Source: Candidatus Sulfurimonas baltica
Lineage (GTDB): Bacteria > Campylobacterota > Campylobacteria > Campylobacterales > Sulfurimonadaceae
Assembly: GCF_015265455.1 (NCBI RefSeq)
Contig: NZ_CP054492.1
Coordinates: forward strand, 1,550,001 to 1,614,000
Direction of reading: 5' to 3'
DNA: 64,000 nucleotides
This document shows positions 55,278-60,047 of this stretch, in pieces (position 1 is the first letter of the stretch; each line of letters opens with the position of its first letter). The notes beneath the pieces were generated by a model, which was not told the DNA's origin, did not search any database, and saw nothing but the letters and a program-made list of their open reading frames with translations. Position numbers and translations under genes: made by a program.

Positions 55278-56237
55278 TTATAATCTTTGTGGCATTTCAT
55301 CTTTAAATGCTGTTTCTTCTGCTTTTTTCAATAGTTCTAGTGCGCCATTATCTATCATTTTTTTTGCCATCTCAAAACCCAGATTTTTGGATTCATCTAC
55401 ATGTAACACTACTTTTTCATTCATAATATTTGTTCCATTAGGAAAACCAAGCATAACTCTAAAAGTTATTTCGTCTTTGTTTTTTACCGCGTTACATGCA
55501 ACAGGTGCTGAACACCCTGCTCCAATTTTACTAATAAAATCTCTCTCTATTTTTGTACAGATAAGAGTGTCTTCATCGTTTAGACTCATAGCTATCTCAC
55601 GAATTTTATCATCTCCACAGACTATCTCAATTCCAAGTGCTGCTTGCCCCATCGGAGGTATCATCATATCAAGTGAGAGTTTTTGCGTGTATGGAATATC
55701 TTTAAGCAAATCTAGTCTATTAAGTCCTATCCAAGCCAATATAATCGCATCATATTGAGCTTCACCTAGTTTTCTAAGTCTTGTATTTACATTACCTCTT
55801 AAATCTTTTACTTTTAAGTCTGGTCGTTGTTTCAAAAGTTGCATTCTTCTTCTCAGGCTTGTCGTTCCAACTACTGCACCTTGGGGCAACTTCTCAAGAG
55901 ATTCATACTTGTGTGATAAAAAGACATCACTTTGGTCTTGTCTTTGAGTAACAGCTACCAATTCTAGACCTTTTGGTATATATGTCGGAACATCTTTTAG
56001 ACTATGTACTGCTATGTCTGCGTTGCCTGCTAGCATCTCATCTTCAAGCTCTTTTGTAAAATGACCTTTTCCGCCAATCAAAGCTAGCGGCTTGTCTAAA
56101 ACTTTATCCCCATTACTCACAATTTTATTTAACTCAACTGTTATATCAGGATAAGATGCTTCTATTCTATCTTTAATATGATACGCCTGCCAAAGTGCTA
56201 AATCAGAGACTCTTGTTGCTATTGTTAATTTTTTCAT
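55278..56237 (-). CDS. hemC: Porphobilinogen deaminase (hydroxymethylbilane synthase)
   Basis: 319 residues. The dipyrromethane-cofactor cysteine lies in GAGCSAPVACNA (about residue 245), and TRVSDLALWQA, SLKDVPT and TTSLRRRMQLL are diagnostic. Polymerises four porphobilinogens into hydroxymethylbilane in haem synthesis. The position beside hemA in the same run makes a haem cluster. Adjacent to the dsb-like gene with no gap. Confidence 0.96.
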   Translation of the reverse strand: MKKLTIATRVSDLALWQAYHIKDRIEASYPDITVELNKIVSNGDKVLDKPLALIGGKGHFTKELEDEMLAGNADIAVHSLKDVPTYIPKGLELVAVTQRQDQSDVFLSHKYESLEKLPQGAVVGTTSLRRRMQLLKQRPDLKVKDLRGNVNTRLRKLGEAQYDAIILAWIGLNRLDLLKDIPYTQKLSLDMMIPPMGQAALGIEIVCGDDKIREIAMSLNDEDTLICTKIERDFISKIGAGCSAPVACNAVKNKDEITFRVMLGFPNGTNIMNEKVVLHVDESKNLGFEMAKKMIDNGALELLKKAEETAFKDEMPQRL

Positions 56238-57068
56238 CTATTTAGCTTCTTTATATTTATTTTTAGTTCTATCCATATCGCCATCAAAAAATATTGTTGG
56301 TGTTCCTCTGACCATTACAAGGTCGGCCACTTTTAAATCATGTTCTATATGCTGTGAAACTTTTTTTGAGAGCAAATCTGACTTATTTATGTTTGAATTC
56401 ATTGTTTTATTGAATTTTTCCAATATTACATCAACTGATTTTTCTCTTGGATCAACTTCTACTTTGTAAAGGCTAAGAAGCACATTTTTTTCACCTTTAA
56501 GTTCAAGAGCTACAGCTGCTTTAACCAGCTCTACAGCTGCCGGATGAAGTGACGGAAGTGGAAAATGGTAATAATATATTGCAAACTTTTTTGGATATTT
56601 TTTCATATAGTTAATTGCCTCTGGTACATAACTCCTACAAAATGGGCATAACGGATCTGAAAAAATAACTACCTTATGCTTAGCATTGCTATCGCCATAA
56701 ATCAAGTTCTCTTTGCTGTAATATTCATCTTTAAATGGCAATGAAACCAAGTCACCGACATTGCTACTACTTTCAATATCATACAACTCTTTTGTTATCA
56801 CATTGCCATCAGAAAACCAAACCATTTTTTGAGTAACTTTTCGTTTATCTTTTTTAACTACTGCATCCAACTCAACAAAATATGCCGTCCACTCTTCTCT
56901 TTGTTTTACGATAACCTCATTTATGACTCTAACGTTTACCGACTCTAAGCTTGGATTATTGCTAAAATTATTTTTTAAAAAATCCTCAACTTTTTCACTT
57001 GCAGAACCTGCTTCTAATATACTACTTAATAGAACTGTTATCGCTAATAATTTCAACATCGATGACAT
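56238..57068 (-). CDS. Thiol:disulfide interchange protein, DsbA/DsbC-like
   Basis: 276 residues. Signal peptide (SSMLKLLAITVLLSSILEAG), an N-terminal region of about 120 residues, then a thioredoxin-like domain with CPFC (DPLCPFCRSYVP) and a cis-Pro loop in RGTPTIFFDG. Layout fits a DsbC/DsbG-like isomerase or a periplasmic DsbA-type oxidase; the N-terminal region may dimerise. AAGGATACAA before the first ATG supports this start. It overlaps the fxsA-like gene by 47 bases, unusually long for this genome. Lies among haem and cytochrome-linked genes, so a role in cytochrome c maturation is possible. Confidence 0.86.
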   Translation of the reverse strand: MSSMLKLLAITVLLSSILEAGSASEKVEDFLKNNFSNNPSLESVNVRVINEVIVKQREEWTAYFVELDAVVKKDKRKVTQKMVWFSDGNVITKELYDIESSSNVGDLVSLPFKDEYYSKENLIYGDSNAKHKVVIFSDPLCPFCRSYVPEAINYMKKYPKKFAIYYYHFPLPSLHPAAVELVKAAVALELKGEKNVLLSLYKVEVDPREKSVDVILEKFNKTMNSNINKSDLLSKKVSQHIEHDLKVADLVMVRGTPTIFFDGDMDRTKNKYKEAK

Positions 57069-57450
57069 TTGTATCCTTTTTTATATTTTTAGTTTCAAAA
57101 TTTGTTTTACACTTTCCTGATTTTACATTATAACGATTAACCGCCATAGTAGTAAAAGCACTAAATTGTAATAATACACCAAGTATATCTGTTAAAAACC
57201 CTGGTATTATTAGTAAAATACCGCCAAGTATTGTAAAAAGATTTAATCTTTGAAATTGTTCTAAGTCTATACAGCTGTAAGAGACTGCTGTCATATTTTC
57301 AGCTAATGTTTTTCTAAAATTTATTAAAATAGATATACCAAAAAAAGCACTTAATATTATTTCAAAAAATGTCGCCAAACCGCCAATAGCAGATGAAATA
57401 TTTACAGAGATTAGTACTTCTAAAAATAGATATATTACAAAATATATCAT
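57022..57450 (-). CDS. FxsA-family membrane protein
   Basis: 142 residues. Three or four hydrophobic segments (about 2-20, 27-43, 73-92 and nearby) and the signature GGILLIIPGFLTDILGVLLQF identify the FxsA family. In Escherichia coli, FxsA overexpression relieves F-plasmid exclusion of phage T7; its normal role is unknown. Upstream of the dsb-like gene, whose start lies within its last 47 bases. The proS gene lies 1 base upstream. Confidence 0.88.
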   Translation of the reverse strand: MIYFVIYLFLEVLISVNISSAIGGLATFFEIILSAFFGISILINFRKTLAENMTAVSYSCIDLEQFQRLNLFTILGGILLIIPGFLTDILGVLLQFSAFTTMAVNRYNVKSGKCKTNFETKNIKKDTNVIDVEIISDNSSIK

Positions 57451-57451
57451 G

Positions 57452-58756
57452 TTATATTAATCCCATAATATGCTTATAAATATCACCCGTATTAATTGAA
57501 GTTTTCTCTTGCGTTTTTCTATTGTAGACTTGAACATGTCCATTGTCCAACTCTTTTCCAATAATTACAGTATATGGGAAACCAATAAGTTCTGCATCTT
57601 TCATTTTGAAGCCAAATCTCTCTTTTCTGTCATCAAGCATAACTTCAACATTTTCACCTAAAAGTTTCAAGTATAACTCTTCTCCAAGCGTATTTTGTGC
57701 TTCATCCTTAATATTAGAAATCATAATATTTACTATATATGGAGCTGTCTCTTTTGTCCAGATACAACCGTTTTCATCATGATTTTGCTCTATAACCGCA
57801 GCAACCAGTCTACTTACCCCTATACCAAATGTTGCCATCTCAAAAGGTTTTGGTTTTCCATTTTCATCACTAAAGTTTGCTTCTAAAGCACTTGAGTATT
57901 TATCTCCAAGTTGGAAAATGTGTCCAACTTCAATACCTTTTTTAAAGTTAAGTTCTCCACCGCAAACACATTTATCACTTAGTTCTTGTGTTTGTAACTC
58001 TTCATACGATTTCTCATTTAAAGCATCAATCTCTTCTTCATTTGTAAAGATAGTCTCTATGTTTGCGCCGTAATCACAACTTTTACAAACAACTATAGTA
58101 TCTTCACCACTATCAGCTAAAACATGGAACTCTTTACTTCCAGTTCCTCCAATAGCTCCGCTATCAGCCTCTACTACTCTAAAATCAAGTCCAAGTCTTG
58201 TAAAAATCTTTTTATAAGTCACTTCCATCAAGTTAAATTCTCTAATCATATCTTCTTGTGATGCGTGAAAAGAGTATCCATCTTTCATTAAAAACTCACG
58301 ACCACGTAAAAGTCCATATCTAGGTCTTGCTTCATCACGAAATTTAGTATTAATTTGGTATAAGTTGATAGGTAAGTCTTTATAGCTAGTTACTCTATTT
58401 TTAACTAACTCTACCATAGCTTCTTCATTTGTAGGGCTTAGTACAAAATCATTTTGGTGTCTATCAGAAATGCGAAGCATCTCTTTTCCCATAGTATCAG
58501 CACGACCGCTTCTCTCCCATAAACTAATAGGCGTTACAAAACTAAGTTGTACTTCATTGCAACCGGCGTTATCCAACTCCTCTTTTACAATATTTCTAAT
58601 CTTTTCTAATACAATCTTTCCTAATGGCATAAAGTTATAAAGTCCAGCACCTTGCTGGTTTATAAAACCGCCTCGCACCAAAAACTGGTGTGATGGCAAA
58701 GTTGCATCAGAAGGAGCTTCTTTTGTTGTTGGTATAAACGCTCTACTTCTTCTCAT
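57452..58756 (-). CDS. proS: Prolyl-tRNA synthetase lacking the INS editing domain
   Basis: 434 residues against about 560-580 for the usual bacterial-type enzyme. Class II core is intact: motif 2 ([25 protein letters not shown], about 139-163, quoted in part), motif 3 ([14 protein letters not shown], 311-324) and C-terminal anticodon-binding domain. Where the roughly 180-residue INS domain normally sits, only about 27 residues (236-262) lie between C224-x2-C227 and C263-x-C265, zinc-ribbon cysteines that commonly flank INS. So the editing domain that hydrolyses Ala-tRNAPro is missing. The frame is continuous, arguing against a mutation. Overlaps hemA by 14 bases. Confidence 0.93.
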
Positions 58757-60047
58757 TTATCTTTCCTTTAACAAAAAATTGACAGGCATGACCATGTGGG
58801 GCTTCACAAGTATGCTTTTTCATACTAGATAGCATTGCACCAGCCATTGTATCTGACTTTGACTCGTCAGAATTATTTCTCATCTTATATGTCATATCAT
58901 GCAAAAATCTTTTTATTACCTGTTCCCCCATTTTACGAACTTGATCAGAATACTCTTTTGGAATATAGCCACTATTTATAACTCTGTCACTCTCCGCATT
59001 AGCAGCTTCAAAAGCTTTACTATATATCTCTTTTATAATTGGTTCAACATCAAGAGTATCTAGTAATTCAAAGAATTCAACAGTACTTCTTCCAACAATC
59101 CCATGGGCCATTCTTGCGCTATCTTCTCTAGCACTCATATTTTCATCAACAATATTTTTTAAATCGTCTATAACATATAAATTAATTCGTTCATCTTTAT
59201 GGCAACTAATATCACGAGGCAATGCCATATCAAACCAATATCTATCAAAATCGCAAGGTTTTATTATCTCATCTGTAATAATAGCTTTAGGTGCTGATGT
59301 TGCAGTAAATAAAATTTCAAACTCGTTTACTGCAGTTGGCAATTCACTATAGTCTAAAACTTTAGTGCCATTAGCCTCTGCAAAACCATCTGCGTGTTCT
59401 TTAGTTCTATTCATAACATATACATCTGCACCACTTGAGAGCAAATGCTTGGCAGTTATTTCCGACATCTCTCCTACACCAATTATTAGTGCTTTTTTGC
59501 CATCTATATCTTTCAAAACAGACTTTAGCAGTGATACTGCAACACTTGCTATGGAGACAGGCTTAGAAGAAATATCTGTTACATTTCTAACTTTTGCTGC
59601 ACACTTAAAAGCATGATGAACTGCACGTGCCAGTTTTTTACCACCAAAATTATGATCCCCTGCGTATCTAAATGCATCTTTTATTTGACCTGCGATCTGC
59701 GTCTCACCAACTACAATAGAGTCAAGAGAAGATGCAACTGCAAATAGATGATGTATAGCGCTACTGTCATCAAATACATCGGCACGCCCCTCAAGCTCAT
59801 CTACACTTATTTCTGAGTGTTCACTTAGCATTGCGAAGACATGTTCTGTAGCTGATCTCACATCATTGCAGCTAGCAAACACTTCCATCCTATTACATGT
59901 AGATATAAGCATAACTTCATTTATAGCTTCATGATTATGTAGCTTTGTTAAGCATGCATTTAAATGATATTGATCAGAGTAAGATAACTTTTCTCTAATC
60001 TCCATAGTTGAATTTTTATGTGAAAAACTTATATTTAAATAGTGCAT
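58743..60047 (-). CDS. hemA: Glutamyl-tRNA reductase
   Basis: 434 residues. The catalytic Cys is C51 ([11 protein letters not shown]). The NADPH-binding [38 protein letters not shown] and the C-terminal dimerisation helix are present. It starts haem synthesis by reducing glutamyl-tRNA to glutamate-1-semialdehyde. The C-terminal tail has an extra [12 protein letters not shown] with two Cys, a small extension of unclear role. Shares one base with the polyprenyl synthase gene. Confidence 0.95.

Follow-up and report, generated by a model that had tools for sequence, protein, structure and literature searches.

How can alanine be kept out of proline codons in a bacterium whose prolyl-tRNA synthetase (ProRS) contains no editing (INS) domain? 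Quality control of this kind, the editing of alanine by ProRS, is textbook knowledge; the question is raised by the proS gene of Candidatus Sulfurimonas baltica, which lies in the window, i.e., the whole stretch of 64,000 nucleotides that was analysed. The gene and its two neighbours were located as follows.

57022..57450, minus strand: fxsA-like downstream neighbour (named by eye), Sulfurimonas-type
57452..58756, minus strand: proS, INS-less bacterial-type prolyl-tRNA synthetase (open reading frame, Pfam, NCBIfam, AlphaFold)
58743..60047, minus strand: hemA-like upstream neighbour (named by eye), Sulfurimonas-type

The proS gene was found to be a single open frame encoding 434 amino acids, unbroken from ATG to stop. 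Pfam search (E ≤ 1) of the protein has shown the presence of the class II core (PF00587) at residues 96–325 and the anticodon-binding domain (PF03129) at residues 344–427 and nothing else; PF04073 was absent at the same threshold, and no INS was found between motifs 2 and 3, where INS-bearing ProRS contains it. The protein scored 603 bits against NF006625 (proline--tRNA ligase), a bacterial NCBIfam model of 559 positions, which it matched in two stretches, and 538 bits, just below the cut-off of 550, against the short model NF008979 (437 positions), which it matched colinearly over 1–430. The ProRS structure of Rhodopseudomonas palustris (2i4l) was aligned over query residues 1–426. The AlphaFold model, made with 31 aligned short enzymes, had a pLDDT of 86.5 and a pTM of 0.87; it resembled solved bacterial ProRS both with and without INS, and its TM score with 2i4l was 0.86 from both sides. 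The enzyme of the window is a bacterial-type ProRS, with a class II core, an anticodon-binding domain and a family-level score, and it is an INS-less one, colinear with the R. palustris ProRS and containing a short linker in the place of INS.

58076..58087, minus strand: CxxC pair, residues 224–227
57971..58075, minus strand: 35-residue linker in place of INS, residues 228–262
57962..57970, minus strand: CxC pair, residues 263–265

The interval from CxxC to CxC was 35 residues, and not about 27 as the sequence-only reading of this locus had counted, whereas the 56 INS-bearing rows from Campylobacterota contained 163–187 residues there (median 167). Compared with these relatives, the enzyme of the window lacks about 130 residues. 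The same reading had described complete catalytic and anticodon parts, an intact frame and a missing INS domain, and it was right in all three, as seen from the open frame, the Pfam domains, the absence of PF04073 and the short stretch between the cysteines. It had also named a sequencing artefact as what would undo its claim. An assembly or sequencing error that removed INS in frame has practically no probability, since the INS-less architecture was seen again in 56 of the 135 genomes examined from the genus, several of them single-contig, and was also found in named records from many isolates and metagenomes.

Of 200 genomes sampled from the class (47 genera), three showed the INS-less match pattern, i.e., a single colinear ProRS match, all of them in the genus of the window among the matches listed; genomes beyond the matches listed were judged by match number. 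PF04073 was present in 193 of the 200. The loss is therefore lineage-specific, as had been guessed from the sequence. The 135 genomes of the genus comprised 56 with a complete INS-less ProRS, 67 with an INS-bearing ProRS and PF04073 (including three on truncated frames), and 12 with a fragment or nothing, which were placed in neither class; one of these, G256, contained an A-type fragment. The 56 INS-less genomes consisted of 45 of group A, with 80–100% identity to the enzyme of the window, and 11 of group B, with 64–70% identity. For the comparison of single rows, open reading frames of less than 380 amino acids were left out, which removed only L098 of the 138 matching frames, and the merging of identical rows reduced 137 rows to 116. 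The cysteine pairs flanking INS, said in the sequence-only reading to be kept, were indeed kept in the enzyme of the window: all four cysteines were present in 39/39 distinct A-type short rows and 56/56 INS rows, and each of them in 17–19 of the other 21 short rows. We infer that the four cysteines bind zinc.

Other irregularities were seen in single genomes. In two 99%-complete genomes of the class sample (G062 and G089), no ProRS of either type was found, only ThrRS-like or other class II matches, which is probably an assembly gap. In genus g17 of family f2, the ProRS frames of G016 and G119 were normal in length (561 and 571 amino acids, respectively), but no PF04073 match was obtained; G018, G050 and G124 each gave a single PF04073 match, with values of only 5e-5 to 7e-6. 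This genus may be in the course of losing INS.

As judged from the sequences, the proS gene proved to be a chimera, in which a catalytic domain of the Arcobacteraceae type, with INS already deleted, is followed by a native Sulfurimonas anticodon-binding domain. The first codons also appear to be native Sulfurimonas, by two sites.

58688..58747, minus strand: first breakpoint interval, codons 4–23, native start then Arcobacteraceae-type (two sites, codons 2 and 3)
57821..58687, minus strand: codons 24–312, Arcobacteraceae-type catalytic domain including the INS-deletion junction (27/27 sites, catalytic-segment tree, p-AU 0.0002)
57740..57820, minus strand: second breakpoint interval, codons 313–339, catalytic/anticodon boundary (sites 312 and 340; Pfam domain from 344)
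57455..57739, minus strand: codons 340–434, native Sulfurimonas anticodon-binding domain (12/12 sites, tree 99/95)

The term Arcobacteraceae-type is used for rows titled Arcobacter, Aliarcobacter, Malaciobacter and Arcobacteraceae together with the genomes that cluster with them (a few with Sulfurospirillum or Sulfurovum titles). Four Arcobacter-type rows were short (INS-less); three of them are titled Arcobacter or Arcobacteraceae and one Campylobacteraceae. In a BLAST search against the collected loci, the INS-bearing rows nearest to the N-terminal 235 residues were of the Arcobacteraceae type, and the remaining C-terminal part was closest to Sulfurimonas. The consensus of group A contained 41 diagnostic sites, of which two were Sulfurimonas-type (to codon 3), followed by 27/27 Arcobacteraceae-type sites at codons 24–312 and 12/12 Sulfurimonas-type sites at codons 340–409; the probability of such a prefix-plus-suffix order under site shuffling was 4e-10. 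The 39 distinct A rows were also scanned row by row, at 40 sites and with slightly different thresholds from those of the consensus scan. Codon 3 was Sulfurimonas-type in 39/39 rows and codon 2 in 38/39, codons 36 and 312 were Arcobacteraceae-type in all 39, and codon 340 was Sulfurimonas-type in all 39. Because the states of codons 312 and 340 are uniform in the 39 rows, the second breakpoint is both sharp and common to them all. The cells at sites 24–312 of these rows were 921 Arcobacteraceae-type, 15 Sulfurimonas-type and 195 neither, and those at sites 340–402 were 320 Sulfurimonas-type, 9 Arcobacteraceae-type and 22 neither. The mean identity of A to the Arcobacter-type short enzymes fell from 88% at residues 301–330 to 31% at residues 341–370.

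The trees of the catalytic segment, the anticodon domain and the two halves of the protein used 14 of the 39 distinct A rows. In the catalytic-segment tree, group A clustered with the four INS-less enzymes of Arcobacter type (100/98) within the Arcobacteraceae-type clade (99/99), and the 25 native Sulfurimonas-type rows formed a separate clade (100/100). Forcing A together with all 25 native rows was rejected (p-AU 0.0002, log-likelihood 80 lower). In the anticodon-domain tree, A was placed with Sulfurimonas (99/95); the rejection of its grouping with the Arcobacteraceae type was weaker (p-AU 0.026), and a single clade of A was not rejected (p 0.11). When the protein was cut at the INS site, the N half gave p 0.008, which overstates the case, as the constraint left out L115 and three rows of another INS-less group (C1) that nest among Sulfurimonas, and the C half, which includes the Arcobacteraceae-type codons 266–312, gave p-AU 0.091, so that the Arcobacteraceae grouping was not rejected. 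As the groups were named only once the pattern had been seen, the p-values do not refer to a hypothesis set in advance. Convergence, or a variation of rate along the protein without any recombination, could also produce discordant trees, and the anticodon domain offers such an explanation some room, as it provides only 96 columns and leaves many forks unresolved; it is nevertheless very improbable in view of the order of the diagnostic sites in the 39 A rows, the steep fall of identity after residue 330 and the opposite topologies of the catalytic and anticodon parts.

The gene order ispA-hemA-proS-fxsA-dsbG-hemC (genes named by eye) was found in most Sulfurimonas loci within contig reach, was whole in L083 and L084, and was largely alike in INS-bearing and INS-less Sulfurimonas loci. 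The Arcobacter-type short loci L066–L068 contained hemA-proS-fxsA-dsbG, and two of them also contained hemC; the other Arcobacteraceae loci contained only ispA-hemA-proS. The shared synteny makes homologous recombination at the proS locus plausible. A tree of the flanks (ispA, hemA and fxsA) was made from the named loci and the window only, with L119 left out and L098, a contig-end fragment 92% identical to the enzyme of the window, counted as A by hand. It contained 27 A, 15 INS and 5 B rows; the A loci were scattered over Sulfurimonas with seven changes, of which starred branches forced four, and a single clade of A loci was rejected (p-AU 5e-115). Since one catalytic clade and one mosaic layout, common to all 39 A rows, occur on many flank backgrounds, one chimera has probably been passed around Sulfurimonas by recombination; recombination may have affected the flanks as well. 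In the catalytic-segment tree, the Arcobacter-type short enzymes nested inside A beside L070 and L081 (98/90), so that the last transfers could run either way. The anticodon domains of L070 and L081 were placed with INS-bearing Sulfurimonas in the anticodon-domain tree (100/94).

Two further features of the neighbourhood were noted. The hemC-like gene showed 52–55% identity to its counterpart in the window (55278–56237) in 14 A-type loci (L044, L048, L049, L050, L051, L054, L055, L056, L057, L059, L061, L062, L063, and L065) against 78–93% in the other Sulfurimonas, which suggests a second, separate gene replacement near proS. In L045 and L112, the distance from the fxsA-like to the dsbG-like gene was about 1.4–1.7 kb greater than in other loci.

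The other INS-less ProRSs of the order look like separate losses in the sequence comparison. Group B, L075 and C1 contained native catalytic domains, and their linkers were unlike that of A though nearly the same in length (33–35 residues); the linker of group C2 was 15 residues. The remnants at the junctions resembled, by eye, each group's own INS flanks, and INS has therefore probably been deleted more than once in the order. The N-half tree, with the outgroup included, contained six INS-state changes, three of them forced by starred branches. L077 (Campylobacterales) and L080 (Sulfurovum) contained an INS-less ProRS with only 15 residues between the cysteine pairs, apparently another independent deletion.

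In the relatives, the profile PF04073 (tRNA_edit) detected both INS domains embedded in ProRS frames and free-standing proteins, and it matched 12 of 14 control genomes, Caulobacter vibrioides among them. The source genome is one contig and 100% complete; it contained no PF04073 match at E ≤ 0.001, and at E ≤ 0.1 the sole match was a 14.3-bit fragment with an internal stop. A second profile, A2, made from Sulfurimonas and Arcobacteraceae-type INS domains and one YbaK, gave nothing at E ≤ 1 in the source genome (G000). It matched the controls G129 and G208 (INS-bearing), G320 (INS and free-standing) and G300 (free-standing), and among 14 INS-less genomes without free-standing PF04073 it found nothing in 13 and a 10.7-bit fragment with a stop in G206. 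With PF04073 and A2, neither a free-standing INS-superfamily protein of the ProXp-ala type nor the YbaK of triple-sieve fidelity (INS or ProXp-ala, plus YbaK) was found in the source genome. The sequence-only reading had expected a free-standing editor such as ProXp-ala to compensate, with a genome search for an INS/YbaK protein as the check; as that search gave none over the cut-off, rescue by ProXp-ala is not supported.

The same absence was found across the genus, where 52 of the 56 INS-less genomes were without PF04073 over the cut-off, as were 36 of the 40 with at least 90% completeness and at most 5% contamination. The remaining four of the 56 (G209, G226, G257, and G300) contained a free-standing PF04073 protein of about 160 amino acids; the only one typed, in the L072 genome (G332, which is G257 by coordinates), was a YbaK (TIGR00011, 182.9 bits, cut-off 153). 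The L072 genome was also the only one with PF04073 among 21 INS-less genomes of unstated completeness reached via named loci (4 Arcobacter-type, 11 Sulfurimonas or other Campylobacterales, and 6 from elsewhere), which partly overlap the genus search. Absence of the INS family is not unique to Sulfurimonas and seems not to be rare outside it: in the class of L097, an alphaproteobacterial MAG, PF04073 was lacking in 43 of 96 genomes, many of them small and of unstated completeness, counted irrespective of the ProRS type.

Only one ProRS was found in the source genome, and a second, archaeal-type ProRS gave no match over the cut-off there. One tRNAPro was present among 44 tRNA matches (150 of 192 first-look candidates scored; all 44 covered by ARAGORN on loci). 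It contained the anticodon UGG, C1:G72 and A73, the pattern of the Caulobacter-type ProXp-ala system, and its canonical C1:G72 and A73 rule out an unusual acceptor stem. The acceptor-stem elements G72 and A73 are described as used both by bacterial ProRS and by ProXp-ala (PMC3973320).

Two sites, in the motif 2 loop and in motif 3, were altered in the enzyme of the window.

58316..58318, minus strand: Tyr147, motif 2 loop (INS-bearing rows: Phe in 55 of 56)
57818..57838, minus strand: motif 3 segment MATFGIG, residues 307–313; MG[TC]YG in the INS-bearing relatives compared

Group A and its Arcobacter-type kin contained MATFGIG instead of MG[TC]YGIG in motif 3 and had lost Leu296. Ala308 was found in 38 of 39 A rows (the exception is L124) and in 4/4 Arcobacter-type short rows, and G308A/Y310F was confined to A and this kin. 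The F147Y substitution was present in 39/39 A rows, three of the four Arcobacter-type short rows and four of the five B rows, against 1 of 56 INS rows, and was absent from the INS-less L075, C1 (three rows) and C2 (two rows). Residues 141–154 of the AlphaFold model were of low confidence and include Tyr147, for which reason the model was not used for placing it. The motif 3 change was absent from the INS-less B, L075, C1 and C2. A general sharpening of the proline pocket as a rule for INS-less ProRS is unsupported, because motif 3 is of the standard form in the other INS-less groups. The altered motif 2 and motif 3 residues may contribute to the exclusion of alanine, and we treat them as leads only.

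With neither INS nor ProXp-ala, what is left is rejection at the synthetic site, hydrolysis of Ala-AMP there, a hidden editor, or tolerance of errors. We favour an account in which the chimera, the sole ProRS found, would have formed once and then have been handed around Sulfurimonas via homologous recombination at the syntenic locus. Ala-tRNAPro would receive no post-transfer editing by any known family; alanine would be rejected at the synthetic site, by the first sieve and perhaps also by release of Ala-AMP before transfer, and the residual low level of alanine at proline codons would be tolerated. We consider this account, taken whole, to be reasonably probable. Pre-transfer activity with alanine has been reported for an INS-bearing ProRS (PMC13003883).

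The discrimination of Escherichia coli ProRS against alanine is given as 23,000, or about 1200 at cellular concentrations, and at this effective value editing is described as likely required in that species (PMC10164551). This argues for a hidden editor, and a trans-editor from outside the INS superfamily, either a new family or a promiscuous deacylase, might clear Ala-tRNAPro; if editing is needed in the 52 INS-less genomes of the genus without PF04073, something else must do it. At the locus itself, no candidate stood out beside proS, where the neighbours within contig reach are largely alike with or without INS, and we regard such an editor as unlikely. A different cause of the spread would be resistance of the INS-less catalytic domain to a natural ProRS inhibitor or toxin, the loss of editing being a hitchhiking cost. 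The tight catalytic clade on scattered flanks and the nearly fixed changes in motif 3 and at residue 296 would fit such a resistance, but B, L075, C1 and C2 are INS-less without the motif 3 change, and we know of no natural ProRS inhibitor of this kind for these bacteria; we consider it decidedly improbable. It is also doubtful that the editing-free module is a recombining cassette under positive selection, substituted for the proofreading form in several Sulfurimonas lineages and shared with Arcobacteraceae, with low fidelity at proline codons, or unaided alanine rejection, being adaptive.

INS-less bacterial ProRS is already known. In our search, which had most subscription journals outside it, no published account of an INS-less ProRS in Sulfurimonas or the Epsilonproteobacteria, or of its recombination, was found. 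The novel elements are the domain chimera, the scatter of its occurrence and the coexistence of both states in a genus whose INS-less genomes mostly show no INS-family protein. Here both INS states are present at the same locus within one genus, with a sharp domain swap, and nothing in 52 of the 56 INS-less genomes matched a known substitute editor. The presence of both states in close relatives makes it testable whether the second sieve is dispensable, replaced, or unneeded given a better synthetic site, and the genus offers a natural experiment on life without proline-versus-alanine proofreading.

Among the known systems, methanogens share the lack of PF04073 with the source genome: the two control genomes without it (of 14) were both methanogens, which indicates that life without the INS family occurs. 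The methanogen ProRS is, however, an archaeal-type enzyme of a different lineage. The INS-bearing ProRS of the E. coli/Enterococcus faecalis type belongs to the same family (NF006625) and has the same fold (2j3l) as the enzyme of the window. The INS-bearing sister Sulfurimonas contain their ProRS at the same locus, and relative to it the enzyme of the window is without the roughly 130 residues of the editing domain. Bacteria without INS have been described as using ProXp-ala (PMC10164551, PMC6344894); Caulobacter crescentus and Clostridium sticklandii, in which ProRS has no functional INS, are given as examples (PMC10164551). The 'mini-INS' ProRS of C. crescentus and R. palustris is also among the closest systems; it consists, like the Sulfurimonas enzyme, of the catalytic and anticodon domains only (TM 0.86 with 2i4l). 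C. crescentus is described as clearing Ala-tRNAPro by ProXp-ala and Cys-tRNAPro by YbaK (PMC6344894), neither of which was found in the Sulfurimonas genome. Unlike these two ProRSs, the Sulfurimonas enzyme is a domain chimera and contains the CxxC/CxC pair, and INS is retained in other species of its genus.
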